Source: Hyphomicrobium facile (lineage in GTDB: Bacteria; Pseudomonadota; Alphaproteobacteria; Rhizobiales; Hyphomicrobiaceae). Taken from it: DNA of 64,000 nt. The notes under the pieces are model-generated. The model saw nothing but the letters and a program-made list of their open reading frames with translations, was not told the DNA's origin and ran no database searches. Shown piece after piece: positions 4,419-27,140 of this stretch (the stretch's first letter is position 1; every line of letters starts with the position of its first letter). The translations under genes and the position numbers were made by a program. The stretch is taken from positions 186,001 to 250,000 of the forward strand of contig NZ_FPCH01000002.1 of NCBI RefSeq assembly GCF_900116175.1. The letters run 5' to 3'.

Positions 4419-8576
<4,158 letters not shown>

Positions 8577-8852: not shown

Positions 8853-8858
8853 CGTCGA

Positions 8859-9230: not shown

Positions 9231-9337
9231 ATATAGTGTCCTTACGGTTTGAACCTAGAGGTTGAATTGCAGCACCCCCGTTGGGCCGTGCTGCGTGTGG
9301 GTTTCGAGGGCTCAAAGGCCCCACAACTCGGCTTCGG

Positions 9338-10937: not shown

Positions 10938-10941
10938 CGGA

Positions 10942-11388
10942 CTACTCCACCACCTTGAGACCCATCGAACGCGCACTACCCGCAAGCGTGCGGGCGGCGG
11001 CGTCGAGATCGTCGGTGTTCATGTCCTTGAGCTTGCCCTTGGCAATCTCTTTCAGCTGATCGATCGTCACCTGACCGGCAACGATACGGCCCGGCTCTTT
11101 CGAGCCCTGACCGCCCTTGCCCGTGGGGCGAAGACCGGCTGCCTTCTTGATCAGATACGTCGCCGGCGGCTGGCGCATCTCGAATGTGAATGAACGGTCG
11201 GAGTAGACCGTGATCTTCACGGGAATCGGTGTACCCTGCTCGAGGTCCTTCGTTTTCGCATTGAAGGACTTGCAGAATTCCATGATGTTGACGCCGCGCT
11301 GGCCAAGCGCGGGACCGATCGGTGGCGACGGATTGGCCGCCCCTGCCGGTACTTGAAGATTGATAAAGCCGTCTATTTTCTTCGCCAT
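10942..11388 (-). CDS. rplK: 50S ribosomal protein L11
   Basis: GTPase-associated-centre protein of the large subunit. 148 aa, with the proline-rich N-terminal motif [20 protein letters not shown] that is the target of thiopeptides and of PrmA methylation. The C-terminal RNA-binding domain has the usual GSARSMGL ending. It lies 185 bases downstream of nusG, and that gap probably holds the rplKA leader or promoter. Confidence 0.98.
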
Positions 11389-11573
11389 AGTTCCCCTTCA
11401 GCGTTAGAGCCCGCACCGGATGGCCGGGCTCAGGGTTAGCGGTCAAACGGACCGGCCTCCGCAAACGGATGACCCGTCCTCCCGCACGTCACCGCTCCGG
11501 AATTCAAATCCCGATGCGGTTTCCGGCGGCACTGCGCCGGAACTCTCTTGCCTGCAACACCGAAACGGCGACG

Positions 11574-12149
11574 TCAGGCAGCCACTTTCTCAACCTGCGT
11601 AAATTCGAGTTCGACCGGCGTCGGACGCCCGAAGATCGAAACCGCGACCTTGACGCGCGAACGCTCCTCGTCGACCTCTTCGACGATGCCGGTGAACGAG
11701 GCAAACGGGCCGTCGGCCACCTTGACGTTCTCGCCGATCTCGAAGGTGATCGTCGGCTTTGGCCGCTCGACGCCCTCCTTGACCTGATTCAAGATGCGCA
11801 TCGCCTCAGCTTCGGGGATCGGCATCGGCTTGTTGTCCGCGCCGAGGAAGCCCGTCACCTTGGGCGTGTTCTTGATCATGACGAACGCGGCGTCGGTCAT
11901 CTTCATTTTGACGAGCACGTAGCCCGGCAGAAACTTCCGCTCGGTCGGGATCTTCCGGCCGCGCTTGATCTCGACGACTTCCTCCGTCGGCACGACGATC
12001 TCTTCGAAGAGATTATCGAGACCGCCCGCCTTGGCCCGCTCGCGTATAGCGTCGGCGACCTTGCGTTCGAAATTCGTGTAAGCATGGACGATGTACCAGC
12101 GCGTACCGGCAACCGTACCTTTATCTTCGCGTTCTTGCGCGACAACCAT
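11574..12149 (-). CDS. nusG: Transcription termination/antitermination protein NusG
   Basis: RNA polymerase elongation factor that also couples transcription to Rho or ribosomes. 191 aa. The N-terminal NGN domain starts at RWYIVHAYTNFERKVADAI and includes LPGYVLVKMKM. The C-terminal KOW domain is VKVADGPFASFTGIVEEVDEE. The first 16 residues are a charged extension common in Alphaproteobacteria. It follows secE by 49 bases in the conserved secE-nusG order. Confidence 0.98.
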   Translation of the reverse strand: MVVAQEREDKGTVAGTRWYIVHAYTNFERKVADAIRERAKAGGLDNLFEEIVVPTEEVVEIKRGRKIPTERKFLPGYVLVKMKMTDAAFVMIKNTPKVTGFLGADNKPMPIPEAEAMRILNQVKEGVERPKPTITFEIGENVKVADGPFASFTGIVEEVDEERSRVKVAVSIFGRPTPVELEFTQVEKVAA

Positions 12150-12198
12150 TCTTAAAGGCCCTCTGGCGCGTCACTCAAATCGATATGCGAGCCGGTTT

Positions 12199-12396
12199 TC
12201 AGCTGGCCACCCCTAGGACGAAACGCACGATGTGGCTCAACGCTTGATCAACGAGCAAAAAGAAAACAGAGGCGAGCGCGACCATGATGAGCACCATCAA
12301 AGTCGTGATCCACACCTCTTTCCAAGTCGGCCAGGTAACCTTTGCGACTTCCTGCCGAACTTCCTGCATAAAGGTTATGGGATTGAACTTCGCCAT
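12199..12396 (-). CDS. secE: Preprotein translocase subunit SecE
   Basis: Small essential subunit of the SecYEG channel. 65 aa from ATG 12396 (MAKFNPITFMQEVRQEVAKV). The codon before it is TTG and could add one residue. It has the family motif VTWPTWKEVWITT, followed by one transmembrane helix (about residues 33-60). This is the short single-helix SecE typical of Alphaproteobacteria. It sits between tRNA-Trp and nusG. Confidence 0.97.
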   Translation of the reverse strand: MAKFNPITFMQEVRQEVAKVTWPTWKEVWITTLMVLIMVALASVFFLLVDQALSHIVRFVLGVAS

Positions 12397-12488
12397 CAAA
12401 ACCGCTTTCCGTGCGCATAAGCGACAACATGCCGCACCCGACCGCGGTCTTTTACCGGGTCGGTCGGCAGATCAAACCGTCACGAGGC

Positions 12489-12564
12489 TGGCAGGGGCGG
12501 AGGGTCTCGAACCCCCGACCTTCGGTTTTGGAGACCGACGCTCTACCAATTGAGCTACACCCCT
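12489..12564 (-). tRNA. trnW: tRNA-Trp (CCA anticodon)
   Basis: A 76-base cloverleaf on the minus strand. The 5' arm AGGGGTG pairs with CGCCCCT (one G-U pair), the D arm is TAGCTCAATTGGTAGAGC, the anticodon loop is CTCCAAA with CCA, and the T arm is GGGGGTTCGAACCCTC. The 3' CCA is encoded. Its place just upstream of secE is the standard order in proteobacteria. Confidence 0.98.
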
Positions 12565-12665
12565 AACGCGACACGAGCAAAAACCCGATCGCCGAGCAGC
12601 CTCTTTCGGGGCGTGCACCCTTAACTGATGTTTTCGACCTTGTCAGCCCCGGCGACGCCTTTTTT

Positions 12666-13049
12666 CTACCGAACCGTCCGAGGGGCTGTCCAGGGCCCTC
12701 CGGCGTCGCTCGAAGTCGCGCCTGAACCGGCGATAGGCTCGATGACGACGGCCGAGCCGTAGGCCAGAACTTCCGTCACAGCCGCGGCGATCTCGTTCGC
12801 GTCATATCGCATCGCAATAACAGCATTGGCGCCCATGCTTTGGGCGTGCTCGACGAGCAGGTCGAACGCCTCTTGCCGGGTATGCTCGGCAAGCCGGGTA
12901 TAAACCGAGATATTGCCGCCAAAGAAGATCTGGATCGCCGCGCCAATGTTGCCGACGACGCTCCGCGAGCGGACCGTCAGCCCGCGTACAAGCCCCAAAT
13001 GACGGACAATGCGATAACCTGGAATGTCGTTCGTTGTCACGACCAGCAT
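12666..13049 (-). CDS. YbjQ/UPF0145 family protein
   Basis: About 127 aa, starting at MLVVTTNDIPGYRIVRHLGL; an ATG five codons upstream is possible. The order VVTTNDIPGYRIV, then LGLVRGLTVRSRSVVGNIGAAIQ, then EHAQSMGANAVIAMRYD is typical of the YbjQ family (pentamer-forming, once called heavy-metal-binding), whose function is unknown. No signal peptide. It is a single gene between tRNA-Trp and the GGDEF-EAL gene, both on the same strand. Confidence 0.85.
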   Translation of the reverse strand: MLVVTTNDIPGYRIVRHLGLVRGLTVRSRSVVGNIGAAIQIFFGGNISVYTRLAEHTRQEAFDLLVEHAQSMGANAVIAMRYDANEIAAAVTEVLAYGSAVVIEPIAGSGATSSDAGGPWTAPRTVR

Positions 13050-13174
13050 GGCGCTCCCTTTCATCCCTGTCCGGCATGGCGCCGAACCTCCCCGTTGAAT
13101 CGCACGCTAACGCGAGATCCGCTTCCTTACGACTGTCGAAGCGATAATCCGGCGAATCTTCCGGCAAGCTACCA

Positions 13175-14998
13175 TCAAGCGCTATTTTCGAGCGTCCGGG
13201 AGAAAATTTGCCGAACCCGGGAGACCGTCGCGGCGATTTCGCCGACGGGAACCGGCTTGCTGAAATAGAAGCCCTGCACTTCTTCGCAGCCCGCATTCGC
13301 GACCATGGCGAGCTGGTCCGCGGTCTCCACGCCCTCGGCAACCGTCGTCATGTGCAGGCGCTTGGCGAGTTCGGCGATGGATTGGACGATCGCTGCGCAA
13401 TCGCGCTCATTGGGTGTACCGAAATCCCGCACGAAAGAGCGGTCGATCTTAAGCTTGTCGAATGGAAAGCTCCGCAGATAGCTGAGCGCCCCGTAAGCGG
13501 TCCCGAAATCGTCGAGCAGGATTTTGATACCGAGCGCGCGAAGCCGATGCAGAAGATCGTGCGTTTTCGGATGATCCCTCAGCAAGACGGATTCCGTTAT
13601 CTCAAGCTCGAGCCGGCCGGCCGGCAGCCCCGACGCGGAAAGGGCCCCGGTAACGGCGCCGTAGAGATCGCCCTTCTCGAACTGAACCGAAGACAGATTG
13701 ACGGCGACCTTTATCTCGGCCGGCCATGCTGCCGCATCTTTGCACGCGCGCGTCAGAGCCCAGTTGCCGATTTCGACGATCCACCCGCTCGCCTCCGCGA
13801 AGGGAATGAAATCACCGGGCGAAATCATGCCACGCTCGGGATGGCGCCAGCGTATCAGCGCCTCGAAGCCGTTCACGCGGTTGGCGCGGATGTCGACGAT
13901 CGGCTGGTAGTGAAGCTCGAACTGCTTCTTCTTCAATGCGAGCTTCAAGTCGGCATCGAGCCGCTTCACGCGGCCGCTCTCGTAATCGCGCTCCGGATCG
14001 TAAAATGCGTAGCTGCCGCGTCCCGACGTCTTGGCGGAATGCAGCGCAAGATCGGCATTTTTCATGATCGTATCGCACGTGCGGCCATGCTCCGGGGCAT
14101 GCACTACGCTCAAGCTTCCAGTGATATACACCTTGCGACCCAACAGCCTATGTTCGGTGCTGATCGTTGCCAACAGCCGCTGCGCCAAGCGTTCCAATTG
14201 TTCGTGCGTCGCGGCGCCGAACCTGATCAGCGCGAATTCGTCGCCGCCGAGCCGTGCCAAAACGTCGGTTTTGCGAACGACCCTGATCAAGCGCCTTGCG
14301 ACGCTTTTCAGCAGCGCATCGCCGACAGGTTGACCGAACGTGTCATTGACGCTTTTGAAGCCGTCGAGATCGATCCAGAGAACAGCAAGCTCGCTGCCGC
14401 TCGCCAGGGCGCCTTGAAGCTGTTCGTGGAAGTAGGAGCGATTATAGAGTTCAGTCAGCGTGTCGTGTTGGGCGAGCCATTCGATCTTTTTTTCAGCTTG
14501 GCGCTCCTCGGTGATGTCCTCGTGTATGTCGATCCAGCCGCCGTCCAACAGAGGCTGACTGGTGACAACAATTATCCGGCCGCTTTTCAGATGTCTCATT
14601 GCTGAAAAAGATTTGCCTTCCGACAGCGCGGCCAGATGATCGTTGATCCAGCGATGCTGAATGTCGCGAACTTCTTTCGCGGTCTGGCCGTCTTCTTTCG
14701 ACACGATGTAGGCGACAATATCCGCAAAGGGTGTCCCCTGCTCCGTCACCGCGTCCGGCAAATCGTAAAGTTCGCGATAGAGATTGTTGCAGACAACGAG
14801 CCGCTGTTGATTGTCGAACATCGACAAGCCGCGGACCATGGTGTTCAGCGCACGAGCGAAGAGCCCGCTTGGTTTTTCGACTTGCTTTTTCCCGGGCCTT
14901 GAAGACCCACGCGCTGCTTTGGAATCTTTCTGACCGGAAGGGATGTCAGCATTGCGTGGCTTAATAGGCTTGGAGGACGGACGGCCGCCGGGCTTCAT
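13175..14998 (-). CDS. PAS-GGDEF-EAL cyclic-di-GMP protein
   Basis: About 607 aa, starting at ATG 14998 (a TTG one codon earlier is open). A basic, Ser/Lys-rich N-terminus (1-45) is followed by a PAS-like domain (about 48-165). The GGDEF domain (about 170-335) has an intact GGDEF at 251-255 and an RKTD inhibitory site ending exactly five residues before it. The EAL domain (about 350-600) has EAL at 379-381 and the LLDDFGTAYG motif. Both catalytic motifs look complete, so it could make and break cyclic di-GMP; many such proteins use only one activity. No transmembrane segment is seen, so it is probably cytosolic. It stands alone. Confidence 0.93.
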   Translation of the reverse strand: MKPGGRPSSKPIKPRNADIPSGQKDSKAARGSSRPGKKQVEKPSGLFARALNTMVRGLSMFDNQQRLVVCNNLYRELYDLPDAVTEQGTPFADIVAYIVSKEDGQTAKEVRDIQHRWINDHLAALSEGKSFSAMRHLKSGRIIVVTSQPLLDGGWIDIHEDITEERQAEKKIEWLAQHDTLTELYNRSYFHEQLQGALASGSELAVLWIDLDGFKSVNDTFGQPVGDALLKSVARRLIRVVRKTDVLARLGGDEFALIRFGAATHEQLERLAQRLLATISTEHRLLGRKVYITGSLSVVHAPEHGRTCDTIMKNADLALHSAKTSGRGSYAFYDPERDYESGRVKRLDADLKLALKKKQFELHYQPIVDIRANRVNGFEALIRWRHPERGMISPGDFIPFAEASGWIVEIGNWALTRACKDAAAWPAEIKVAVNLSSVQFEKGDLYGAVTGALSASGLPAGRLELEITESVLLRDHPKTHDLLHRLRALGIKILLDDFGTAYGALSYLRSFPFDKLKIDRSFVRDFGTPNERDCAAIVQSIAELAKRLHMTTVAEGVETADQLAMVANAGCEEVQGFYFSKPVPVGEIAATVSRVRQIFSRTLENSA

Positions 14999-16248: not shown

Positions 16249-17262
16249 TCACTCGGCCTTCGTTACCGGGAGTGGCGGCGGCGGTTCGCTTTTCGGGCGC
16301 TTCGGCGTCGGCCCATCCGAGAAGCTGTTGAACACGACATCGGGCGACGTCGTGTTGTGCTGGGACGGCACCAGCCGGCCGATCCAGATGTCGGTTGCCC
16401 GGGCGTGATCGAACTTCATGATGTTGTCCTCGCGCCAGCCCTTGGCTCCCTGCTCGCGGACAGCGATGCGCGCCGTATCGTTGTTGAATTCGGTGATGTA
16501 CATCGATCTTAACATCGCGAACGGGCCGCCGCCGATTCCATGATCAAAGACGACGTCGATGGCTTGGCGGTTGTCGTCGATGGAGACCATACGTACGGAC
16601 GCCGAGCCACCTTTCTCGAATTCGAGATTGAATGTGCGCGTTGCGGGATCGAACACAACTTCCTTTATTTTGACCAGGGGCCGGCCGTCATGCTCGATGG
16701 GGCCGACGATGAAGGACGAGCCGTAGGCGGTATTGCGCATGCTTGAAGGCGTCAGCGGGCGGGCGCGCCAGTAGCCGTCCTGAGGGTAGAGAACGAGCAC
16801 TTCTTCGGCGCCATCGTCGCGCTTCAACCAGACCTGCAACAGGTGCAGGCCGCTTTCAACGTGATCGCCAATGCGCACGTTCGTCACTGCGGGGCGCCAG
16901 AAAGAGGGATAGGTGAAACCGACGACCCAAAGCTTGGTGTCCTCATAAAGCGTCACCATTTTGGGCGGGTTTGGCGCCGCATAGCTCGGGTCCGACGCCA
17001 TATCGCACGCAGTCCAGTCGGCTTCGACGTTCGCGCGCATGTTGGGGGTCAGATAAACCGGGTGGGCCGCTTCGATACGGAATGCTCGTACGTTCTGGTT
17101 GGCAAACGAGACTGCGACGTTGTCCTTCTCGGCACAAAGCACCGGCTCGCTTTCGTTCACGACGTCGACGGCAAGACCGTCGAGCGACGCGGCGCGCGCG
17201 GGCGTTAGTGGCGCCGCCAGGAGCAGCAGCGCGGTGGCGATCAGACGGACGTACAAGGGCAT
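16249..17262 (-). CDS. Exported protein of unknown function
   Basis: About 337 aa from ATG 17262, with GGAG six bases before the start. A signal peptide is clear (MPLYVRLIATALLLLAAPL, cleavage likely after TPARAAS). The mature part is mostly beta-strand-like, with no domain I recognise, and ends in a Pro/Lys-rich tail. Two cysteines (LCAEKD and TACDMA) could pair in the periplasm. It lies downstream of opgH and the FkbM gene on the same strand (75 bases), so a role in periplasmic glucan handling is possible but not shown. It is not OpgG-like in length or motifs. Confidence 0.8.
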   Translation of the reverse strand: MPLYVRLIATALLLLAAPLTPARAASLDGLAVDVVNESEPVLCAEKDNVAVSFANQNVRAFRIEAAHPVYLTPNMRANVEADWTACDMASDPSYAAPNPPKMVTLYEDTKLWVVGFTYPSFWRPAVTNVRIGDHVESGLHLLQVWLKRDDGAEEVLVLYPQDGYWRARPLTPSSMRNTAYGSSFIVGPIEHDGRPLVKIKEVVFDPATRTFNLEFEKGGSASVRMVSIDDNRQAIDVVFDHGIGGGPFAMLRSMYITEFNNDTARIAVREQGAKGWREDNIMKFDHARATDIWIGRLVPSQHNTTSPDVVFNSFSDGPTPKRPKSEPPPPLPVTKAE

Positions 17263-17337: not shown

Positions 17338-18081
17338 TCACGGCTGAAGCACAGCATAGATGTCGCCCGAGTTCGCGTCGTGCGGCAGATTGCTGAGATA
17401 GCCGGCCATCTCTGCATCAGAAAGCCAGCGATCGAATGACAAGTTCTGATTTTCGCCCAGCGCGACGTTGTAGCCATAGGCACCGAGGGCCGACATCCTG
17501 TCGAAGCAGGCCATCGCGACATCGCGTGCAATCGTCGTGAATTCGAAGGACAGAGCCTTTATCGGCCGCGACAGGCCGCGCAGCACCGCGTCTTCGAAGC
17601 CTTCGACGTCGATCTTGACGAACGACGGCGATCCGTAGCGTGCGATGAGGCCGTCGAGCGTCACGACTTCGATCGGGATCTGGCCGTCCCATATCTGGCC
17701 TTCCCAGCCCTTTGCGCCCTCAGCCTGGTGCACGAACTCTTCGGACAACGTGGAGACGGTCGGGTTTGCGGTGTTGATGAAAAGCTCGCGAGTGCCTGCT
17801 TCTGCTCCGACCGCACGGTCGATGATCTCGACCAGGGGATCTCGCCCGTGGATGTGGGTTAGCGCGGAGAAGAGCAGCGGTTGCGGCTCAATCGCGATGA
17901 CGCGGGCGCCGAGCCGGCGAAATGAGGATACGCGATCGCCGACGTGGGCGCCGACATCGAACACGAGATCGCCCGGTTCGACGAAACGGCGATAGAGCGC
18001 GTCCATGGCGCTGCGCGGGGCCTCGGGTCCGAGATAGATCCGCAGCGACCGGAATACGCCTTCGAGAGCCGGTGACGCCAT
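17338..18081 (-). CDS. FkbM family methyltransferase
   Basis: 247 aa. The S-adenosylmethionine site is LVFDVGAHVGDRVSSFRRLG (about residues 39-58), followed by VIAIEPQP. The family's FVKIDVEGFEDAVLRGL motif is intact in the C-terminal half. FkbM-type enzymes O-methylate sugars and other small molecules. It starts four bases after the opgH stop, so it is in the same transcript, and a substrate linked to the periplasmic glucan or its precursor is a reasonable guess. No signal peptide, so it acts in the cytosol. Confidence 0.88.
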   Translation of the reverse strand: MASPALEGVFRSLRIYLGPEAPRSAMDALYRRFVEPGDLVFDVGAHVGDRVSSFRRLGARVIAIEPQPLLFSALTHIHGRDPLVEIIDRAVGAEAGTRELFINTANPTVSTLSEEFVHQAEGAKGWEGQIWDGQIPIEVVTLDGLIARYGSPSFVKIDVEGFEDAVLRGLSRPIKALSFEFTTIARDVAMACFDRMSALGAYGYNVALGENQNLSFDRWLSDAEMAGYLSNLPHDANSGDIYAVLQP

Positions 18082-18085
18082 GAGG

Positions 18086-19882
18086 TCAGCTCCCGGCCTG
18101 AACGGATCGGATTTCGGCGGGCGGCGCGAAGTCCTCAGGGATCCCCGCTATGCCATGACGGCGGAAAAAGGGGCCGACGGCGGGGCTCGCGGTGAAAACG
18201 ACAAAGGGAACCGCAAGCCCGTAACCCGCCGTCAGCGGCAAACTCCATAGGAGTGCGGCGGGGGATACGAGCGCGATGGCCACGTAGAGCAGCACGCCGA
18301 AGAGGAGTTGCGGCCAAAGCCACCGGATGGCGTCGCCCCATGTCACGCCGCCGCCGTCGCGGCGCTGGCCGTTCCAGACGATCGTTCTTCCGAACAATAG
18401 CCCGACCATGAAAATCGACGTTCGTATCGTCGTCACCGCGCCGAGAACGAGCGAGAACAAAATCTCGATGATTGCGCTCGATGCAAATCTCAGGCGGCCG
18501 CCGAAGCGGCTGATCTCGCCCGGCGTCAGAATGGCGTCCGCTATCCCCGCAAGCTTCGGCGCGAGATGCATCAACAAAAGGAGGCCGTATATCGTTTCGA
18601 CGGCCAACCAGGGGAAATCGCTCTGGCGTTCCGCGCTCAGCATGGCGAGCGGCAGGACGGCGGCGAGCAGCGTCCACGCCGGAACGCCGAGAAACATCAG
18701 GACCGCCCAGAAAAGTTGAAAGCGGCTAACCGGCTCGATCCCGGGCATTCCGATCAGACGCAGATACTGCATGTTGCCCTGACACCAGCGCGCGTCGCGG
18801 CGCATGAATTCGAGCGCGTCGGGGGGATTGTCCTCGTAGGAGCCCATTTCGACAGGCAGCACGCGCACCTCGTAGCCCGCCTTGCGCATGAGAACGGCTT
18901 CGACCTGATCGTGCGATAGGATCGTCTCGCTCTTCATCAGCCCCTTCAGGGCGCAATGCTCGACGTAGGGCGCGATACGAACGAGAGCGTTGTGGCCCCA
19001 GAACGGTCCACAGTCTCCCACCCACCAGGCCTGCCCCATCGTGTAAGTCCGCATACCGAGGCGCATGCCGAACTGGAAAATGCGCGCGAACGCCGACGAC
19101 GACGGCGTGCCGACGACAAGGCTTTGCAGAATGCCGATGCGAGGATGCTTCTCCATGATGCGCACGAGCGTAACGATGGCATCGCCCGTCATCAGACTAT
19201 CCGCATCGAGCGGCAGCATGAACTCGTAATCGGAGCCCCAGCGCAGGGCGAACTCGCGGACGTTGCCGGCTTTGAAACCCGCGTTGCCAATTCGCCGGCG
19301 ATAGACGATGCGGCCGGGATCCGGGTCGGGTTGCTTCCACGCGGCGACTTCCGCTTCTTCGCGCTGGATGATCTCATCGCGATCACTGTCGCTCAGCACG
19401 AAATAGGAGAAGCGATCCCCCTCCGCCATCAGATCCAGACTTGCCTTCACGGTTTTCAGCCGCAGCAGGGCCCGTGCCGGATCCTCGTTACGCAACGTCA
19501 TCAAGATTGCAGTATTAACCGTAAGGGGCGACTGATCGCCCTTCGTTTCGTAATACGGCTCGGCGTGCGTACTTTTCGTCCCATGAAGCTGCCACAGCCC
19601 GATGACAGCATTCCAGAAACCAAGAACCGGCCAAGGGGCGCCGAGTGCCAAGCAAATGACCATCGTGAGGCCGACCACAGTCCAGCCGCCGCTCATGAAA
19701 ATCGCGCCGGCGACGAGCACGATGAGAAGCCACGTCGCAAGATTGAGAAAAAGGACAACGCGCCGCCGCTTGTTCAGCGTGGCTATTGCGTCCAGGCCTG
19801 CGGGAGTCGTAAGGCTTGGGGCCTCGACGACAATCGTTCTGTTAATGTCCGACACCCCGTCGTGCTCGGCACCGATCGTCAT
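18086..19882 (-). CDS. opgH: Periplasmic glucan glucosyltransferase OpgH/MdoH
   Basis: Inner-membrane GT2 enzyme that polymerises UDP-glucose into osmoregulated periplasmic glucan. 598 aa from ATG 19882; the frame stays open upstream but runs into the divergent gene. Two N-terminal membrane helices (about 32-75) are followed by the catalytic domain with SDSDRDE, LPLDADS, the ILSHDQVEA segment and RRDARWCQGN, the QxxRW-like site. Several C-terminal helices follow. The size matches the shorter alphaproteobacterial OpgH rather than the 847-residue E. coli enzyme. The usual partner opgG is not next to it; instead an FkbM methyltransferase follows at once. Confidence 0.92.
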   Translation of the reverse strand: MTIGAEHDGVSDINRTIVVEAPSLTTPAGLDAIATLNKRRRVVLFLNLATWLLIVLVAGAIFMSGGWTVVGLTMVICLALGAPWPVLGFWNAVIGLWQLHGTKSTHAEPYYETKGDQSPLTVNTAILMTLRNEDPARALLRLKTVKASLDLMAEGDRFSYFVLSDSDRDEIIQREEAEVAAWKQPDPDPGRIVYRRRIGNAGFKAGNVREFALRWGSDYEFMLPLDADSLMTGDAIVTLVRIMEKHPRIGILQSLVVGTPSSSAFARIFQFGMRLGMRTYTMGQAWWVGDCGPFWGHNALVRIAPYVEHCALKGLMKSETILSHDQVEAVLMRKAGYEVRVLPVEMGSYEDNPPDALEFMRRDARWCQGNMQYLRLIGMPGIEPVSRFQLFWAVLMFLGVPAWTLLAAVLPLAMLSAERQSDFPWLAVETIYGLLLLMHLAPKLAGIADAILTPGEISRFGGRLRFASSAIIEILFSLVLGAVTTIRTSIFMVGLLFGRTIVWNGQRRDGGGVTWGDAIRWLWPQLLFGVLLYVAIALVSPAALLWSLPLTAGYGLAVPFVVFTASPAVGPFFRRHGIAGIPEDFAPPAEIRSVQAGS

Positions 19883-19967
19883 TACGGACCCATCCTTCGC
19901 AATGAGTGACCCGCAGAGCAGATTCGACTCCAATGCCCAGCGCTTAAGGCGCAGCCAAGGCCAGATC

Positions 19968-20927
19968 GTGGTTGCCCGAGCCCTCTGGTACGTCAAACCC
20001 GGCATTGCGGAAGTTCGACCCGAACGCCTCTCTCCGCCTTCACCGGGTGAAGCACGCATCGCGACGGAGTATTCCGCAATCAGCCGCGGCACCGAACGTA
20101 TGGTCGCGCTTGACGAAATCCCTCAAAGCGAATGGGCACGAATGCGTGCCCCGTTGCAAGCTGGAGACTTCTCCTTCCCCGTCAAATACGGCTATTCCGC
20201 GACAGGGGTCGTGACCGCGGGTTCCGAGAGATTGGTGGGTAAACGCGTCTTCGTGTTGCACCCGCACCAGGATCATTTTCATGCTCCGGAAGCGCTGCTC
20301 GCGATCCTTCCGGACAACGTGCCATCGCGCCGCGCCGTGCTCGCGGCGAATATGGAGACTGCGCTCAACGCCCATTGGGACGCGGGCACGACGCTCGGCG
20401 ACCGGGTTCTCGTGGTGGGCGCCGGCATCGTCGGATTGCTGACAGCGCATCTCGCGAATCGAATTGCGGGAACGGACGTCACGATCACCGACATCAATCC
20501 AGCGCGGGCGAAATACGCCGAGAAGCTCGGGATCAAGTTCGTGTCCAACACGGACGTCCCCGCCGGCAACCGCATCGTGTTTCACGCAAGCGCCACGTCG
20601 GCTGGTCTCGAGACCGCGATCAACGCTTGCGCCTTCGAGGGCAGCGTGATCGAGATGAGCTGGTATGGGACGAACCCCGTGACGGTGAACCTCGGCGGCG
20701 CCTTCCACAGCCGCCGCCTCAAGATCATCTCATCGCAGGTGGGGCACGTGGCGCCTCTCCACCGCAACCAACTGAAACACAAAGACCGCCTCGAACGGGC
20801 GATTGCCATGCTCGACGACGACCGTCTAGATGCGCTCGTCGCCGATGCCGTCAATTTCGAGGATCTACCCTCGGCGCTTCCGAAAATCTGGTCATCGTCC
20901 GACCTTCCGCCCATCGTCCGCTATTAA
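19968..20927 (+). CDS. Zinc-less MDR-type dehydrogenase
   Basis: About 319 aa from GTG 19968, which has AAGG seven bases upstream and gives the family-like N-terminus VARALWYVKPGIAEVRPE. ATG 19902 is in frame but lacks a ribosome binding site and leaves only 19 bases to divergent opgH. The Rossmann motif is VLVVGAGIVGLLTAHLA (residues about 145-161) with acidic TDINPARAKYA after it. The cysteine cluster that binds structural zinc in alcohol dehydrogenases is missing, as in BchC-like members. It is the first gene of an operon with the PTPS-like, glycosyltransferase and methyltransferase genes (22 bases to the next), so it probably oxidises or reduces a side chain in that pathway. Confidence 0.85.
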   Translation: MVARALWYVKPGIAEVRPERLSPPSPGEARIATEYSAISRGTERMVALDEIPQSEWARMRAPLQAGDFSFPVKYGYSATGVVTAGSERLVGKRVFVLHPHQDHFHAPEALLAILPDNVPSRRAVLAANMETALNAHWDAGTTLGDRVLVVGAGIVGLLTAHLANRIAGTDVTITDINPARAKYAEKLGIKFVSNTDVPAGNRIVFHASATSAGLETAINACAFEGSVIEMSWYGTNPVTVNLGGAFHSRRLKIISSQVGHVAPLHRNQLKHKDRLERAIAMLDDDRLDALVADAVNFEDLPSALPKIWSSSDLPPIVRY

Positions 20928-20949
20928 TTCGCACAGGTTGAAGCCATCC

Positions 20950-21354
20950 ATGTACTCCGTCGAAGTTCGCGACCGCATCATGATCGCCCATTCGCTGCCC
21001 AATCCCTTTTTCGGACCGGCGCAGAACCTTCACGGTGCGACCTACGTCGTCGACGTTGCGTTCTTTCGTGAAAAACTGACCGAGCAGAACGTCGTCGTCG
21101 ATATCGGCGCGGCCTTGAGCGTGCTCGGCGCGACGCTGCAGCCGCTCGCCTATCAGAACCTCGACGTGCTTCCGCAATTCAAGGGCGCCCTCACCACGAC
21201 GGAATTTCTCTGCAAATATATTTTCGACCGCATCGCCAAGGCCGCCGCTTCGGGTGCGCTTGGCGAGGAAGGAAAAACGCTTGCACGAATTCGCGTGACG
21301 CTGTCGGAAACCGACCTGGCGCGCGCCAGCTACGAGGGACCGATCGGTGGCTGA
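20950..21354 (+). CDS. PTPS/QueD-fold protein lacking catalytic residues
   Basis: 134 aa, the right length for the 6-pyruvoyl-tetrahydropterin synthase / QueD family. The fold signature aligns: AHSLP (His14), NLHGATY (His28), the middle VVVDIGAALSVLG and the end RVTLSETDLARASYEG, with the substrate-anchoring Glu at 120. Key positions differ. The catalytic Cys four residues before the HGH His is Ala24. The third zinc ligand (second His of HGH) is Ala30. The Asp-His pair of the LDHxxLN motif is Ala67-Tyr68. It therefore cannot work as a normal QueD and may bind a pterin or catalyse a different step. Its stop overlaps the next gene's GTG start. Confidence 0.85.
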   Translation: MYSVEVRDRIMIAHSLPNPFFGPAQNLHGATYVVDVAFFREKLTEQNVVVDIGAALSVLGATLQPLAYQNLDVLPQFKGALTTTEFLCKYIFDRIAKAAASGALGEEGKTLARIRVTLSETDLARASYEGPIGG

Positions 21355-22393
21355 AGCCGTTTTCGCCATCCCCGGAGATCTGAAAGCGACGACCGGAGGC
21401 TATGCCTACGATCGCCGCGTGATCGAGCTGTTGCCTGCGTTCGGCGTTCCCGTATCGGTTCTCTCGCTGCCCGGCTCGTTTCCAAATCCGGATGCGAACG
21501 ATCTGGACGAAACGCGCCGCATTCTCGAGACGCGGCATGCGGATTCGGTGCTGCTCGTAGACGGCCTCGCCTACGGCGCTTTTCCCGACACGATTCTCGG
21601 TAAGATTCCGGGACGCGTCATCGGCCTCGTCCATCATCCGCTGTTTCTTGAAACCGGGTTGCCGCACGCGCGGAAGGTCGAGCTCAAAGCCAGCGAAGAG
21701 CGGGCGCTGGAGCGCGCCAACCACATCATCGTGACGAGCCGCGCGACGAAGCGCATCCTCACCGAGCACATGGCGATTTCGCCCGATAAGATCACGATCG
21801 CGGAGCCTGGAACGGACCCCGCGCAGCGGGCGACCGGCACCGGCGCGCCGTTGCAGATTCTGGCCGTCGGCGCCGTCATGCCGCGCAAAGGTTACGACCT
21901 TCTCGTCGAAGCTCTCGCGCCGCTCGACACAATCGATTGGCGGTTGACGATCGCGGGCGCGCTCGACCGTCATCAGCAGGCTGTCGAGGCTGTTCAAAAT
22001 GCAATAGCCAAGCACGGCCTTGAAAATCGCGTCACCCTCGCGGGCAAAGTCGTGCCGGCGACGCTCGACCGGTTCTACGATTGTGCAGATCTCTTCGTCT
22101 CGGCATCGCTGTTCGAAGGATACGGCATGGTTCTGGCCGAAGCGATGGCTCGCGGCCTGCCGATCGTGCTGGCTGCCGGGGGCGCTGCGGCCGATACGGC
22201 GGGCGAAGCGGCGGCGCTTCACGTCGAGGCGGGCAACGTCGGCCAGCTCACGTCGGCGCTGCAGCGCGCGCTGACCGATAAGAAGCTTCGCGACCGGCTT
22301 GCCGATGCGGCCTGGGAAGCGGGCCGCACCTTGCCGACCTGGCACGAAACAGCGCGGCGCATTGCAGCCGTCATTCTTGGATTACGCCCGTGA
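21347..22393 (+). CDS. GT4-family glycosyltransferase
   Basis: 348 aa from GTG 21347, overlapping the PTPS-like gene by eight bases. It is a GT-B enzyme: an N-terminal acceptor domain, then the nucleotide-sugar domain starting near ILAVGAVMPRKGYDLLVEAL, with the EX7E motif in SLFEGYGMVLAEAMARG. No signal peptide or membrane anchor, so it is cytosolic. The tight overlaps on both sides say its acceptor is the product of this operon and not a cell-wall polymer, though the sugar and acceptor cannot be read from the sequence. Confidence 0.88.
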   Translation: MAEAVFAIPGDLKATTGGYAYDRRVIELLPAFGVPVSVLSLPGSFPNPDANDLDETRRILETRHADSVLLVDGLAYGAFPDTILGKIPGRVIGLVHHPLFLETGLPHARKVELKASEERALERANHIIVTSRATKRILTEHMAISPDKITIAEPGTDPAQRATGTGAPLQILAVGAVMPRKGYDLLVEALAPLDTIDWRLTIAGALDRHQQAVEAVQNAIAKHGLENRVTLAGKVVPATLDRFYDCADLFVSASLFEGYGMVLAEAMARGLPIVLAAGGAAADTAGEAAALHVEAGNVGQLTSALQRALTDKKLRDRLADAAWEAGRTLPTWHETARRIAAVILGLRP

Positions 22394-23223
22394 GCGATTT
22401 CTCGCCCGAATGGCTTGACCTGCGCGAAGCCGCCGACGCGCGCGCGCGTAACGCGAGCGTTGCCAATGCGGTGGCAGCACGCTTTGCGCTCAGAGGCGAT
22501 CTCCGCATTCTCGATTTGGGAGCCGGCACCGGCGCCAATCTCAGGGCGACGTCGGCTTTGCTGCCGGAGCGGCAGACATGGACGCTCGTCGATCACGACC
22601 CGGCCTTATTAGACGTGGCGAAATCCAAGCTCATTCAATGGGCAGACCGCCACGAGGAAACCGGCGAGACGTTGCTGCTCGAAAAGGGCCGCCTCAGGAT
22701 CACTGTCACCTTCAAGACCGCCGATCTCGCCCGCGACACGCAAATGCTTCTCGACGAGAAGCCTCAGCTCGTCACAGCGTCAGCCTTCTTCGATCTGACG
22801 TCGGAAGACTACATACGGACGCTGGCGAAAGCCGTCACTGCTGCGGGCGCGGCGTTCTACGCGACGCTGACCTACAACGGCCTGCAAAAGTGGACGCCTC
22901 ACCGGCCCGCCGACAATCAAATGACGGCAGCCTTTCAGCGTCACCAGATGCGGGACAAAGGTTTCGGTCCGGCCGCAGGACCGCTCGCGCCTTCGCACCT
23001 GGTCGATCAATTCCGCATCAACGGGCACGTCGTCGTCGAGGGCGACAGCCCATGGCGGCTCGAGCGCAACGACCGGATGCTGATAGACGAATTGATCCGC
23101 GGATATGCGGTCGCCGTGACCGAAAGCGGCGGCGTCGACGCGAAGGCCGTTGTCGGTTGGGTGAACGTTACGCGGACCGCAGCGTTTGTCGGACACACCG
23201 ACGTGTTCGCTGCGCCACCCTGA
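22390..23223 (+). CDS. Class I SAM-dependent methyltransferase
   Basis: 277 aa from GTG 22390, overlapping the glycosyltransferase stop (GTGA). The cofactor motif is ILDLGAGTGANLRATSALLP (about residues 40-59), followed by TLVDHDPALLDVA. The C-terminal half (TYNGLQKWTPHRPADN onward) is not one I can tie to a named substrate. It is the last of four co-transcribed genes: dehydrogenase, PTPS-like, glycosyltransferase, methyltransferase. The next gene converges on it from the other strand with 13 bases between. Confidence 0.86.
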   Translation: MSDFSPEWLDLREAADARARNASVANAVAARFALRGDLRILDLGAGTGANLRATSALLPERQTWTLVDHDPALLDVAKSKLIQWADRHEETGETLLLEKGRLRITVTFKTADLARDTQMLLDEKPQLVTASAFFDLTSEDYIRTLAKAVTAAGAAFYATLTYNGLQKWTPHRPADNQMTAAFQRHQMRDKGFGPAAGPLAPSHLVDQFRINGHVVVEGDSPWRLERNDRMLIDELIRGYAVAVTESGGVDAKAVVGWVNVTRTAAFVGHTDVFAAPP

Positions 23224-23236
23224 AACCGGCCGCCGG

Positions 23237-23836
23237 TTAGACTACCCGCTTCGGTATCATTCGCTCGACGACCCGGTCCCTGCGAATGAACCGATGATAG
23301 ACGGCGGCTGCGATGTGTATCGATGCGAATACGATGATCAGGATCGCTCCGGTCTCGTGCCACTCGAAGACTTCCTTAGCGAGGTTCTCGTTCTTTTCGC
23401 TGATTGCCGGGAGGTGGACTCCGAAGACGTCGAGATAGTTGCCGTAGGAAATCGCCTTGTAGCCGATAACCGGAACGGCGATCAGCAGCGCATAGAGCGC
23501 CCAATGGACGAAATGGCTAATGCCGGTCAACGCGGGTGGAACGGTCGGATCGGAACGCGGTGCTCCACGAGTCAAACGGTAGAGCAGGCGCAGAATGACA
23601 AAGAGCAATATCGTCAGCCCGATGACTTTATGCGAACTATAGAGAGTGTCCGTCAGCGCATCCCAGACGCCCTTGACCGGCTCACCCTTTTCATTGACGC
23701 CGGGCATTTCGTTGCCCCGGTACGCCATGTAAAAGCCGAGCGGTAGCTGGATGAAGACGAGCAACGCGATCCACCAATGCAAACCGCGCGCTACTGGCGT
23801 GTACGTCGGGAGATCGTACTTGGGATCCTGGGCCAT
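23237..23836 (-). CDS. Cytochrome b561 family protein
   Basis: 199 aa integral membrane di-heme cytochrome b. Four helices are visible, near LHWWIALLVFIQLPLGFYM, HKVIGLTILLFVILRLLYR, FVHWALYALLIAVPVIGYK and TGAILIIVFASIHIAAAVYH. The histidines that normally bind the two hemes are present in each (for example GLHWW, SSHKVIG, HWALYAL, WHETGA/SIHIAA). Such proteins move electrons between quinol and periplasmic acceptors. It starts three bases after the RibD-type reductase stop, so the two form an operon. Confidence 0.9.
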   Translation of the reverse strand: MAQDPKYDLPTYTPVARGLHWWIALLVFIQLPLGFYMAYRGNEMPGVNEKGEPVKGVWDALTDTLYSSHKVIGLTILLFVILRLLYRLTRGAPRSDPTVPPALTGISHFVHWALYALLIAVPVIGYKAISYGNYLDVFGVHLPAISEKNENLAKEVFEWHETGAILIIVFASIHIAAAVYHRFIRRDRVVERMIPKRVV

Positions 23837-23839
23837 GCT

Positions 23840-24595
23840 TTAGCCTCGCCGCTGATGCCTCAGATCACAATCGAACAGCACATCGCCGCCGTCAAGAACG
23901 TGCACTGTGGTTTCCGGCCGTATCGCCTCGTTGACGCTGTCGATCGGCATCAGTGACAGTCCGGGAATTCCGGAACCCAAGATCAGCGGCGCGGCCAGGA
24001 TATGAATCCGGTCCACTATCCCGGCATTGATGAAATGCGAGATCGTCGTTCCCCCGCCCTCCACCAGGATCTTCTTAAGCCCTCGCTTGAAAAGCGCTTC
24101 GACGATGTCGGCAGGCTCGATCCGCTGCGCGGCGGCTTTTATTACGAGCCCTTCGGCGCCTTTCGGCACGAGCCCTCCACTGCTCGTCACGACGAGGCAG
24201 GCGCTTTCACCCGTCGCGAGGCAGCGTGCGGATGCCTGAAGGCGTCCTCTCGGATCGATGATGACGCGGACCGGCTGCGGACCGTCGACGCGTCTGACGG
24301 TGAGTTGCGGATCGTCGGCTATGATCGTTCCAATCCCAACTACGACGGCATCGACCTTGGACCGCAGCCGATGCAGGTGATCCAGGGCGGCGGCACCGTT
24401 AATTCCGCGCGAGTCGCCGCTCCCCGTCGCAATTCGTCCGTCGAGGGATTGGCCCAGCTGCGCGATGATGAACGGCCGGTCCGCCGGCGCATTGACGATG
24501 GGATCGAAGATCGACTGCGGCAGCTCGCCCGCACGAGCGGATTTGCCGCCACGGCGCGGCGCAGAACCTTCCTTACTAATTTTGCCGGATGTCAT
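23840..24595 (-). CDS. RibD C-terminal-type pyrimidine reductase
   Basis: About 251 aa from ATG 24595; ATG 24640 is also possible and neither start has a clear ribosome binding site. It is a stand-alone RibD_C (DHFR-like) domain: PFIIAQLGQSLDGRIATGSG (start of the fold), RSKVDAVVVGIGTIIADDPQLTVR, VRVIIDPRGR, then ILVEGGGTTISHF and HILAAPLILG. The family reduces the ribosyl side chain of the GTP cyclohydrolase II product with NADPH. There is no fused deaminase domain, so it is not a complete riboflavin RibD. Together with the nearby GTP cyclohydrolase II it suggests a side branch off the riboflavin route. Confidence 0.85.
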   Translation of the reverse strand: MTSGKISKEGSAPRRGGKSARAGELPQSIFDPIVNAPADRPFIIAQLGQSLDGRIATGSGDSRGINGAAALDHLHRLRSKVDAVVVGIGTIIADDPQLTVRRVDGPQPVRVIIDPRGRLQASARCLATGESACLVVTSSGGLVPKGAEGLVIKAAAQRIEPADIVEALFKRGLKKILVEGGGTTISHFINAGIVDRIHILAAPLILGSGIPGLSLMPIDSVNEAIRPETTVHVLDGGDVLFDCDLRHQRRG

Positions 24596-24712
24596 GAGAT
24601 CTCGGAGTGATATAACGCAGTCGAATGATCGTAGCGCCATCGGGCCGCCATCGAGATTTCGCACTCCTCGCTAAGGGCATTCGTTTCCTCTCATCTTACA
24701 TAGCATCCCATC

Positions 24713-26488
24713 ATGAATTCGAAGCCGCTTGGCCTCATTGCAATCTATACGCGCGCGCTCGCTCTTTTAGCTCCCGAAAAATACCTCGCCATGGGGCTCG
24801 CGGCAGCAGGCGTGGTGATCGCGGTTACCCAGCTTGCCGAACCCATCCTGTTCGGGCGGGTTGTGGATGCCCTGAGCAAAGGCGAAAGCGCATTTTTCTA
24901 TATCGGACTTTGGGCGCTTCTCGGTCTTTTCGGGATCTTCGCCGGCGTCATCGTCGGGATAAACGCGGATCGCCTTGCGCATCGCCAGAAGCTGGCTCAC
25001 CTCGCAAGCATTTTCGAGAAAACGATCGCCCTGCCGCAAAGTTCACATGCCACGCGCGGGTCGGGGGCGACTATACGGACGATCCTTTCCGGAATGAGTG
25101 CGCTGTTTTGGCTCTGGCTCGGCGTCATGCGCGAGCAGCTGGCGACGGTTTTCGGCATCATCCTGCTAGTGCCGACGGCGTTCGCGATGGACGTCCGGAT
25201 GTCGGTCATTCTGGTGACGCTCGCTGCCGTTTACACGCTGATGCACGTGGTCGTCGTCAAGCGTACGGCCGTTGGCCAAGCGGCCGTCGAGGAGCACGAA
25301 ACCGCGCTTTCCAGCCGCGTCGTCGATGTCATCGGAAACGTGACCGTCGTGCAGAGTTATGGGCGTCTCAAGGCTGAAGCCGATGCGCTCAGAGGATTGG
25401 CGAACGATCTTCTCGCCGCTCAATATCCAGTGCTGACGTGGTGGGGCGTGCTGACCGTCCTGCAGCGCTCAGCCGCGACCCTGACGATGGTCATTATCTT
25501 CTCCGCGGGCGCCGTCCTCGCCGGGCGCGGCGAGCTGACCGTCGGCGAGATCGTCAGCTTCGTCGCCTTCGCGGCGCTCTTGATATCGAAGCTCGACGCG
25601 TTATCAGGATTTGCGGTGCGGATCGACCAGCAGGCTCCGACGCTCACGGCGTTGTTCCGGCTCATCGATGAAGGAGGCGCGCCTGTCGATGCACCGAGCG
25701 CCAAACCGCTTCGCACCGTCGAAGGCGCGGTCACCTTCGATGATGTGAGCTTTCGCTACGAGGGCGCACCGCAGGGCATCAGCGATCTTTCGTTCTCAGT
25801 CAAAGCCGGAGAAACGATTGCGTTCGTCGGCCCGACGGGATCGGGCAAGTCGACCACGATCGGCTTGCTGCAACGTTTCCTGAAGCCAAAATCCGGGCGC
25901 ATCTTGGTCGACAATCAGGATATCGCCGGGGTTACGCTGCAATCTTTGAGAGGCGCGATCGCCGTCGTTTTTCAGGACGCCGGGCTCTTCAATCGTTCCA
26001 TCGGCGAAAACATTCGCATCGGCCGACCCGGTGCGACGGATGCGGAAGTCGAGCATGCGAGCCGTCTCGCCGAAGCGCACGACTTCATCATGCGGAAGCC
26101 CGGTGGATACGACTTCGTGATCGGGGAACGGGGTCTGGCGCTGTCGGGCGGCGAGCGTCAGCGCATTGCAATTGCGCGCGCCATTTTGAAGGATGCGCCG
26201 ATCCTCATTCTCGATGAGGCGACGAGCGCGCTCGATTCAGAGACAGAAGCCAAGATCAAGCGGGCGCTCGATACGCTGCGCGCGGGCCGCACGACCTTCG
26301 TCATCGCGCATCGGCTCTCGACCGTCGCCGATGCCGATCAGATCCTGGTGCTCGATCAGGGTAAAATCGTGGAGCGCGGGCAGTTCGTCGAACTTGCGGA
26401 ACGTGGCGGCCTCTTCTCGCGTCTCGTCGCAGAGGGCGGGTTCACCGTTCCGAAGACGACCGAGAAACCACGCGAGCCGATCGCTTAG
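24713..26488 (+). CDS. ndvA: NdvA/ChvA-like glucan ABC exporter
   Basis: 591 aa half-transporter: six-helix membrane domain (about 1-310) fused to an ATPase. Walker A GPTGSGKST, Q-loop VVFQDAGLFNRSI, signature LSGGERQRIAIARAIL and Walker B ILILDEATSALD are all intact. Much of it resembles rhizobial NdvA, for example AEPILFGRVVDAL, ADRLAHRQK, EAQYPVL-like AAQYPVLTWW and FQDAGLFNRSI. Those proteins export cyclic beta-1,2-glucan. No cyclic glucan synthase is in the window, while opgH is, so here it could export another glucan or the product of the pterin-like cluster that surrounds it. Confidence 0.88.
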   Translation: MNSKPLGLIAIYTRALALLAPEKYLAMGLAAAGVVIAVTQLAEPILFGRVVDALSKGESAFFYIGLWALLGLFGIFAGVIVGINADRLAHRQKLAHLASIFEKTIALPQSSHATRGSGATIRTILSGMSALFWLWLGVMREQLATVFGIILLVPTAFAMDVRMSVILVTLAAVYTLMHVVVVKRTAVGQAAVEEHETALSSRVVDVIGNVTVVQSYGRLKAEADALRGLANDLLAAQYPVLTWWGVLTVLQRSAATLTMVIIFSAGAVLAGRGELTVGEIVSFVAFAALLISKLDALSGFAVRIDQQAPTLTALFRLIDEGGAPVDAPSAKPLRTVEGAVTFDDVSFRYEGAPQGISDLSFSVKAGETIAFVGPTGSGKSTTIGLLQRFLKPKSGRILVDNQDIAGVTLQSLRGAIAVVFQDAGLFNRSIGENIRIGRPGATDAEVEHASRLAEAHDFIMRKPGGYDFVIGERGLALSGGERQRIAIARAILKDAPILILDEATSALDSETEAKIKRALDTLRAGRTTFVIAHRLSTVADADQILVLDQGKIVERGQFVELAERGGLFSRLVAEGGFTVPKTTEKPREPIA

Positions 26489-26498
26489 CGTCCGTTGC

Positions 26499-27140
26499 CT
26501 AGAGCTTGTGGGCCATGCGGGCGCGCTTCGTTTCGAGATAGCGCTTGTTGAACTTGTTCGGCATGGCGACGATGGGCAGCCGCTCGACGACGCGGATGCC
26601 GTGCGATTTAAGCGCCTGCTCCTTTGCCGGGTTGTTCGACAAAAGTTTGATCTCCGGCATCTGGAGGTCAGCCAGCACGCGCGCGGTCAGGCCATAATCG
26701 CGGCTATCGATCGGCGCGCCGACCTCGATGTTGGCTTCGACGGTATCGAGCCCCTGGTCCTGCAGCGCATAAGCCTGGATCTTCTTGAACAGGCCGATGC
26801 CGCGCCCTTCGTGGTACGGCACGTAGATAATCGCGCCATAGGGCACATCGGAGATGATCTTCAAAGCGGCCTGGAGTTGCTGGTAGCAGTCGCAGCGCAG
26901 CGAGTGGAAGATATCGCCCGTCACGCAGCCGGAATGAACGCGAACCACCGGGATCGGCGCTGAACCGTTGAATTTGGCCGCATCGCGATGCACGAGCGCC
27001 AAAATCTGCTCTTCATCGGTCTCTCCGCGATAGGCATGGGCTTCGAGCATCAGCTCTTGTCCCTGGAATTCGATCGGGAGAATGGTTTCCACCGACCAAT
27101 CCGCTGGCAGTTTTACAGACGTCAAGGTACCCGACTTCAT
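26499..27140 (-). CDS. ribA: GTP cyclohydrolase II
   Basis: 213 aa from ATG 27140, close to the 196 aa of E. coli RibA; the frame is open further upstream, but the residues there are not family-like. The zinc site is GCVTGDIFHSLRCDC, with all three cysteines at the standard spacing. The catalytic stretch HEGRGIGLFKKIQAYALQDQ, then DTVEANIEVGAPIDSRDYG, is canonical. The enzyme opens GTP, releasing formate and pyrophosphate, to a diamino-ribosylamino-pyrimidinone phosphate. It is not fused to a RibB domain and has no FMN riboswitch that I can see, unlike the usual riboflavin supply gene, so it may feed the neighbouring reductase. Confidence 0.93.
   Translation of the reverse strand: MKSGTLTSVKLPADWSVETILPIEFQGQELMLEAHAYRGETDEEQILALVHRDAAKFNGSAPIPVVRVHSGCVTGDIFHSLRCDCYQQLQAALKIISDVPYGAIIYVPYHEGRGIGLFKKIQAYALQDQGLDTVEANIEVGAPIDSRDYGLTARVLADLQMPEIKLLSNNPAKEQALKSHGIRVVERLPIVAMPNKFNKRYLETKRARMAHKL

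Follow-up and report, generated by a model that had tools for sequence, protein, structure and literature searches.

A 64,000-nucleotide stretch of the Hyphomicrobium facile genome (contig NZ_FPCH01000002.1, positions 186,001 to 250,000; hereafter the window) raises the question of what might be made by a group of genes, at 19,968 to 27,140 of its own numbering, in which relatives of riboflavin and pterin enzymes stand beside a glycosyltransferase and a methyltransferase. An initial annotation, made from the letters alone, had read this group as a possible undescribed pathway to a glycosylated, methylated pterin or ribityl-pyrimidine. Comparison with other genomes makes it near certain that four of the genes, encoding a dehydrogenase (ADH), a tunnelling-fold protein (PTPS-IV), a GT4 glycosyltransferase and a methyltransferase (MT), form the core of a functional unit, and we lean, by a small margin over an even chance, towards the view that the cassette draws off the first intermediate made by GTP cyclohydrolase in the riboflavin route and turns it into a separate small molecule. 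The pathway is a conserved one that has been partly noticed in print, and the main idea of the initial annotation survives in a corrected form.

A conserved core of four genes

The genes of the initial annotation were all found where it had placed them and in the families it had named, as judged by Pfam and NCBIfam and, in the case of MT, by predicted fold. With their neighbours they are:

19968..20927, plus strand: ADH, zinc-less medium-chain dehydrogenase, distantly BchC-like (PF00107, 34.2 bits, cut-off 31.8)
20950..21354, plus strand: PTPS-IV, FGPAQ-motif tunnelling-fold protein (PF01242, 75.5 bits)
21347..22393, plus strand: GT4 glycosyltransferase (PF00534, 99.9 bits)
22390..23223, plus strand: MT, class I S-adenosylmethionine methyltransferase (below Pfam cut-offs; predicted methyltransferase fold)
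23237..23836, minus strand: cytochrome b561 (CYB), probable accessory, directly downstream of RED (PF01292, 107.5 bits)
23840..24664, minus strand: RED, stand-alone RibD_C reductase with Gln at the RibD Lys position (PF01872, 144 bits)
24713..26488, plus strand: ChvA/NdvA glucan exporter, not a cluster member (NF010178, 806.5 bits, cut-off 733)
26499..27140, minus strand: GTP cyclohydrolase II (GCH II), uncertain pathway member (PF00925, 175 bits)
18086..19882, minus strand: OpgH/MdoH glucan glucosyltransferase, divergent neighbour, possible extended member (NCBIfam MdoH, e.g. 457.2 bits, cut-off 419)
17338..18081, minus strand: FkbM-family methyltransferase, possible extended member (PF05050, 56.8 bits)

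ADH starts with GTG, an alternative ATG being possible at 19902. The four core genes had been described as an overlapping operon, which is accurate for PTPS-IV and GT4 (8 bases shared) and for GT4 and MT (4 bases shared) but not for ADH and PTPS-IV, which are separated by 22 bases. RED and cytochrome b561, which the initial annotation had put in one operon, lie 3 bases apart on the minus strand, and the stretch is, as had been said, devoid of ribE and ribH.

Conservation was assessed in three sets of loci: close relatives, obtained from a PTPS scan of named genomes (the best 80 of 179 confirmed relatives); a phylum sample of 398 genomes drawn evenly, with loci chosen by an MT profile; and 17 plasmid loci, drawn from searches listing 21, 24 and 10 overlapping records. 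The plasmid and phylum-sample loci combined number 42 and were picked by PTPS or MT, with no selection for ADH, GT4 or RED; because of this choice the picking gene itself is not counted as evidence for the core. Neighbour counts near PTPS given below refer to the 59 of the 80 close-relative loci with enough flank, to 24 phylum-sample loci and to 17 plasmid loci. Among the best 80 of the 179 relatives, the order is ADH-PTPS-GT4-MT in 63, PTPS-GT4-MT in 13, ADH-PTPS-GT4 in three and PTPS-GT4 in one, some of these loci lying at contig ends; the closest named contig among the matches listed belongs to a Hyphomicrobium metagenome-assembled genome (96% identity over PTPS). In the set of 42 loci, the full order was seen 33 times and ADH-PTPS-MT five times, such that the order ADH-PTPS-(GT4)-MT is kept in 38 of 42, from alphaproteobacteria to actinobacteria and haloarchaea; the remainder consists of two loci with PTPS alone, one with ADH-PTPS-GT4 and one without PTPS, and ADH is found upstream of PTPS in 39 of the 42.

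The MT profile matches 26 of the 398 phylum-sample genomes. Apart from that of the window, these include 24 with a PTPS-IV core and a single one, G425, the weakest in score, with none. Hosts of the cassette include Streptomyces, Microbacterium, Arthrobacter (where MT was not found in the cassette), the gammaproteobacterium Thiodictyon, Rhizobiaceae, Rhodobacterales and six haloarchaea. The cassette is partly plasmid-borne and widespread in bacteria and some haloarchaea, and the co-occurrence that the initial annotation had proposed to look for in other Rhizobiales extends far beyond that order in the fetched loci. Pairwise distances of the five core proteins are correlated with one another (r 0.76-0.91, permutation p <= 0.001 for each of 10 pairs, n 33-49), part of this correlation being due to shared descent. 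GT4 and MT form a single reading frame of 656-662 amino acids in six loci, which come from two families of other classes than that of the window's genome. This argues that the two act on one molecule and supports a glycosyltransferase and a methyltransferase as regular members of the group.

Enzymes of the core and their riboflavin-type partners

The window PTPS carries the FGPAQ signature (FFGPAQNLHGAT) and has PF00925 and PF01872 genes in its neighbourhood, the first being the defining motif of PTPS-IV proteins and the second a neighbourhood described for them (PMC5445326). The six haloarchaeal relatives have GPEG or GQEG in place of FGPAQ. Its nearest solved structure, PDB 3d7j (SCO6650, E 1.5e-36), is labelled 'uncharacterized'. 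The Glu that anchors the pterin in PTPS proteins is kept in the window protein, as are two of the three zinc-type histidines that are typical of pterin-acting PTPS; the third is Ala, here and in the aligned bacterial PTPS-IV proteins, and all three are kept in six of six haloarchaeal forms (HSH motif). Assignment to QueD or to PTPS-I, -II or -III (motifs CxxxHGH, CxxxxxHGH and ExxHGH) was rejected, the window protein reading HGA rather than HGH and having no Cys at the motif position; NCBIfam scores are 32.5 for QueD (cut-off 89.25) and 27.8 for 6PTHBS (cut-off 125.5), and a second PTPS-family gene, assigned at family level, is present in the genome at C2:26113. Elsewhere, at about 9000-9400 of two Streptomyces plasmid loci (L129 and L130), a lone PTPS-IV gene lies near MEKHLA, cupin and MBL-fold genes, suggestive of a second use of the fold. 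ADH scores 65.8 bits against TIGR01202 (below the cut-off of 291), is modelled with an MDR fold (pLDDT 93) and has no cysteine among the invariant columns of alignments A3 and A5. The description of these two proteins as a degenerate PTPS-fold protein and a zinc-less dehydrogenase is consistent with the lost histidine of the one and the want of an invariant cysteine in the other. The MT model shows a methyltransferase fold (mean pLDDT 95.3) and its best PDB matches are methyltransferases (TM about 0.6).

The clearest link between the core and riboflavin-type chemistry is RED. Its profile scores are bimodal over the 398 genomes, with 24 genomes at 258 bits or more and the next at 156 bits. All 24 carry the cluster and 22 of them are MT-positive; the other two (G257 and G274) have PTPS, ADH, GT4, GCH and another methyltransferase, which in G274 is of a different family and adjoins GT4. 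In the latter genome the ADH match is split over two overlapping frames (L163:9771-10761), possibly reflecting a frameshift or a start problem. Of the 27 known cluster genomes 24 have RED, against none of the 371 others; 27 is a lower bound because a cluster with another MT and no RED would escape both profiles; the three cluster genomes without it are G144, whose contig ends inside the locus, G438 and G448. The Fisher value for the raw RED/MT table is 5e-30, to be taken only as a guide as species are not independent. Among 60 relatives, RED was found at 46% identity or more in 27 of 35 PTPS-positive and one of 25 PTPS-negative genomes, and it lies near PTPS in 20 of the 24 phylum-sample loci. 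In G075 RED sits 60 kb from the core and still co-occurs with it, so that the link is more than one of adjacency. There, RED, FkbM, a CDP-alcohol phosphatidyltransferase (CDPA) and OpgH form a unit of their own (L165, 7844-12773), 60 kb from ADH-PTPS-GT4-MT.

RED was annotated initially as a RibD-type reductase without its deaminase, which is correct, and it departs from RibD in a further respect: the Lys of the genome's own RibD is replaced by Gln in 56 of 57 RED proteins and by His in the other. This Lys is presumably equivalent to Lys151 of B. subtilis RibG, which is credited with selecting the substrate after its deamination. Three PDB reductase chains, one of them named diaminopyrimidinone reductase, have Asn at the same place, and the best PDB match of RED is annotated as a 2,5-diamino-6-ribosylamino-pyrimidinone reductase; against TIGR01508, the archaeal diaminopyrimidinone reductase model, RED reaches 120 bits (cut-off 186.45). 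The Gln and the best structural match fit a reductase for the diamino form, and RED probably accepts this non-deaminated substrate.

Genes for riboflavin itself lie elsewhere. PF00925 occurs at four places and PF01872 at three in the genome, one copy of each belonging to a complete operon at about 526-530 kb of contig C4 that encodes RibD (deaminase and reductase), RibE, RibBA, RibH and NusB, each above its own Pfam cut-off. Because of this operon and the second PTPS-family gene, the window genes are extra copies; their interpretation as a riboflavin duplication was rejected on account of the same operon, and with a full RibD and a RibBA elsewhere the ribA and reductase of the window are not the only copies, the case in which the initial annotation was to be given up. 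Two further PF00925 copies, at C3:37-42 kb, were considered and rejected, their neighbours being a luciferase-like monooxygenase, a flavin reductase and a molybdopterin oxidoreductase. The surrounding locus (L118, G000:C3:31000-48000) groups, at about 6087-13635, RibA, a cytochrome c-like protein, a SoxC-like molybdopterin oxidoreductase, a RibF-like protein, the flavin reductase and RibBA, together with the luciferase-like monooxygenase and a flavodoxin-like reductase; we take it to resemble the dimethylsulfide-monooxygenase type with its own flavin supply.

The cyclohydrolase of the window is a different matter. A match of at least 70% identity to it is present in 22 of 22 sampled congeners, including G003, in which no PTPS was found. 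Its tie to the cluster is weak, and the role of pathway enzyme first given to this particular gene is not supported, the gene being genus-wide whether or not PTPS is found. Other cyclohydrolases do lie beside the core: a 368-residue GCH II in Agrobacterium (above an NCBIfam cut-off), one of similar length in Peteryoungia, a longer GCH II in Bosea-type loci, a GCH II with Met for Tyr next to a creatininase in Streptomyces (S. fungicidicus), and in Haloarcula halophila a GTP cyclohydrolase III (GCH III), which is unrelated to GCH II. The 50 GCH proteins of the fetched loci have Tyr (49) or Met (one) at the key position, which we take to be the equivalent of E. coli RibA Tyr105, and the spacing of the zinc cysteines is found in 47 of 50 with our first pattern and in all 50 with a looser one; both the spacing and the Tyr are visible in the window GCH II. 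Met-type GCH and GCH III release a formylated product, such that a deformylase is then needed. A strict rule by which creatininase would accompany Met-type GCH was rejected, as it holds in S. fungicidicus only; three loci have creatininase and no GCH in the stretch.

A proposed route, its weak points and its rivals

Taken together, these features suggest a route in which GCH II would convert GTP to 2,5-diamino-6-ribosylamino-4(3H)-pyrimidinone 5'-phosphate; alternatively GCH III could open the route, or a Met-type GCH together with a creatininase as a possible deformylase. With no deamination beforehand, RED would then turn the ribosyl group into a ribityl chain, of which ADH would oxidize a hydroxyl, and PTPS-IV, which retains the fold and the Glu, may bind the pyrimidine and close or reshape a pterin-type ring; a ketone at 2', adjacent to the 5-amino group, would be expected to cyclise to a 7,8-dihydropterin. 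GT4 and MT would add a sugar and a methyl group to the same molecule, and in some lineages CDPA and a flippase-like protein could anchor it to a phospholipid. Our best guess for the product is a pterin-type or ribitylpyrimidine metabolite, glycosylated, methylated and in some lineages lipid-anchored. The computation shows the unit and its gene order, the co-occurrence of RED and its Gln, the range of cyclohydrolases and the fused GT4-MT frame, whereas we infer each reaction and the product; a GTP-derived start is likely and the ribityl step probable with exceptions.

The CDP-alcohol motif, D-x2-DG-x2-AR-x8-G-x3-D-x3-D, has all eight of its positions invariant in 13 of 13 aligned CDPA proteins. 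CDPA scores 235 bits or more in 13 of the 398 genomes, all of them cluster genomes, and 168-195 bits in five more, of which only G397 is a cluster genome; a flippase-like protein lies near PTPS in 11 of the 24 phylum-sample loci. With CDPA in only some of the cluster genomes, lipid anchoring, if real, is a lineage trait. In Haloarcula, a Gfo/Idh/MocA protein adjoins CDPA in H. halophila, and a Gfo/Idh/MocA-aldo/keto reductase fusion lies beside the cassette of H. sinaiiensis (L124:4904-6874).

Most close-relative loci also have OpgH, FkbM and cytochrome b561 close to the core. OpgH is near PTPS in 50 of 59 close-relative, 10 of 24 phylum-sample and one of 17 plasmid loci, FkbM in 45, eight and two, and cytochrome b561 in 47, seven and three, respectively. 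A non-glucan role for OpgH was considered and rejected: 22 of the 27 cluster genomes also have OpgG, so that OpgH may serve ordinary glucan synthesis. In six genomes of other classes than that of the window (L145, L146, L148, L150, L154 and L156), the gene for OpgG, a periplasmic glucan protein, lies no more than about 10 kb from PTPS, four of these stretches having an OpgH match. Adjoining FkbM and OpgH in the window, 16249-17259 encodes a protein whose N-terminal part includes a hydrophobic segment and which matches no Pfam family up to E 1. The ABC exporter pointed out in the initial annotation turns out to be a ChvA/NdvA glucan exporter above two NCBIfam glucan-export cut-offs (806.5 and 666.7 bits); a ChvA match lies within 9 kb of PTPS in 13 of 59 close-relative, none of 24 phylum-sample and one of 17 plasmid loci, and, not being conserved with the core, it was rejected as a pathway part.

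A more daring version of the proposal, which we regard as quite unlikely, has the product as a pterin-type cofactor made by the cyclohydrolase-II route and decorated with a sugar and a methyl group. In lineages with CDPA and the flippase-like protein it would be bound to phospholipid and act as a redox carrier on the outer face of the membrane. Ribityl reduction, chain oxidation and ring closure on the tunnelling-fold protein would there replace the Amadori step of GTP cyclohydrolase I; cytochrome b561 could reduce the molecule, or glucans carry it, and the carrier would be common to bacteria and haloarchaea.

A number of observations weigh against the proposed diversion of a cyclohydrolase intermediate. 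RED is near PTPS in only 26 of 59 close-relative and seven of 17 plasmid loci, it is absent from eight of 35 PTPS-positive relatives, and neither the S. fungicidicus cassette nor any of the six haloarchaeal loci has it. None of the 11 Bosea genomes searched has it either, the single match in each, a frame of 382-429 amino acids, fitting a full-length RibD. Archaeal riboflavin synthesis already includes a RED-type reductase. GCH is near PTPS in nine of 24 phylum-sample, 35 of 59 close-relative and four of 17 plasmid loci; the window GCH II also occurs without the cluster, with 56-61% matches in four same-family genomes lacking PTPS. Creatininase accompanies a Tyr-type GCH in four of the five loci that have both, so that a deformylase role for it is not general, and the S. 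fungicidicus creatininase reaches 37 bits where the ArfB deformylase model asks for 180. At a threshold of E 1e-25, no CDPA is found in the window's genome or in 12 of the 13 cluster genomes that belong to the same order, the L129 and L130 plasmids carry PTPS without the rest of the core, and fold searches with the MT and ADH models name no substrate.

Foremost among the alternatives, unlikely in our view yet the strongest of them, is that ADH, PTPS-IV, GT4 and MT act on a FolE-derived pterin of the dihydroneopterin type to yield a methylated pterin glycoside, GCH II and RED being loose helpers or part of another branch. RED and GCH are indeed the least constant members, and the three zinc-type histidines of all six haloarchaeal PTPS proteins are those of pterin-acting PTPS; however, high-scoring RED is confined to cluster genomes (24 of 24), and the GTP cyclohydrolases annotated in the cassettes are of types II and III, not I. 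Less plausible still is a lumazine or flavin variant made through the host RibH and RibE and decorated by GT4 and MT. Both host proteins are present, and the compound presumed to be made by RED is set apart from the riboflavin intermediate by its 2-amino group only, but PTPS-IV and ADH are then left without a role, and the annotated plasmid cassettes, whose gene tables are incomplete and include one unannotated locus, list no ribE, ribH or ribB close to the core. We give very little credence to a role in F420 or deazaflavin biosynthesis: ribitylaminopyrimidine is an F420 precursor too and G006, a PTPS-carrying congener, has an F420 ligase, but the ligase CofE (PF01996, the single marker used) is absent from 28 of 29 genomes searched (28 cluster genomes and G425, that of the window included, none being actinobacterial or haloarchaeal), with positive controls in three archaea. 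A PTPS-IV role in F420 is mentioned, as unpublished, by Zallot et al. 2016 (PMC5041015). A chance or housekeeping neighbourhood without common function, to which ChvA as an ordinary neighbour and the lineage-dependent cytochrome b561 and OpgH would be suited, is already refuted for the core by an identical order in two domains of life, the single GT4-MT frame and the co-occurrence at a split locus, and as a whole merits next to no belief.

Relation to known systems

A gene set conserved in alpha- and other proteobacteria, actinobacteria and haloarchaea, carried on plasmids and found beside varied GTP cyclohydrolases, points to a molecule worth keeping. Should it prove to be a pterin-type cofactor or pigment not seen before, the PTPS-IV family would no longer be an orphan, annotations of these genes such as 'queuosine biosynthetic process' could be corrected, and there would be a testable alternative to GTP cyclohydrolase I for the formation of the pterin ring. 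S. coelicolor SCO6650 and its GCH II homologs were reportedly the subject of work in 2008. The word 'undescribed' in the initial annotation applies in part: the structure of SCO6650 (3d7j) is solved and the PTPS-IV neighbourhood with PF00925 and PF01872 has been in print since 2017 (PMC5445326), but no published product was found in the literature searched on SCO6650-SCO6655, PTPS-IV, pterin lipids and the gene combinations, most subscription papers lying outside that search.

The closest relative is the PTPS-IV subfamily of COG0720 (SCO6650, 3d7j), with which the window protein shares motif, sequence relation and the PF00925/PF01872 neighbourhood. In the AGeNNT study the subfamily comprises 561 sequences in one cluster with these two families as neighbours; PF00925, GTP cyclohydrolase II in the Pfam used here, is there called FolE2 (PMC5445326). 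The accessible portions of the published accounts (PMC5445326, PMC5041015) name no ADH-GT4-MT core, CDP-alcohol transferase or published product. The bacterial riboflavin operon (ribD-ribE-ribBA-ribH), of which the genome has a complete separate copy, has the GCH II and RibD_C families in common with the cassette, whereas RED has neither the deaminase domain nor the RibD Lys. In cyanobacterial pterin glycosyltransferase systems, a pterin is likewise glycosylated by a cytosolic enzyme; we know of no link of these systems to RibD_C or GCH II. The archaeal and fungal riboflavin route, with its GCH III, ArfB-type deformylase and diaminopyrimidinone reductase, shares GCH III with the H. halophila cassette and provides the best PDB match of RED; unlike that route, the cassette lists no lumazine or riboflavin synthase, and it is ADH, PTPS and MT that follow.

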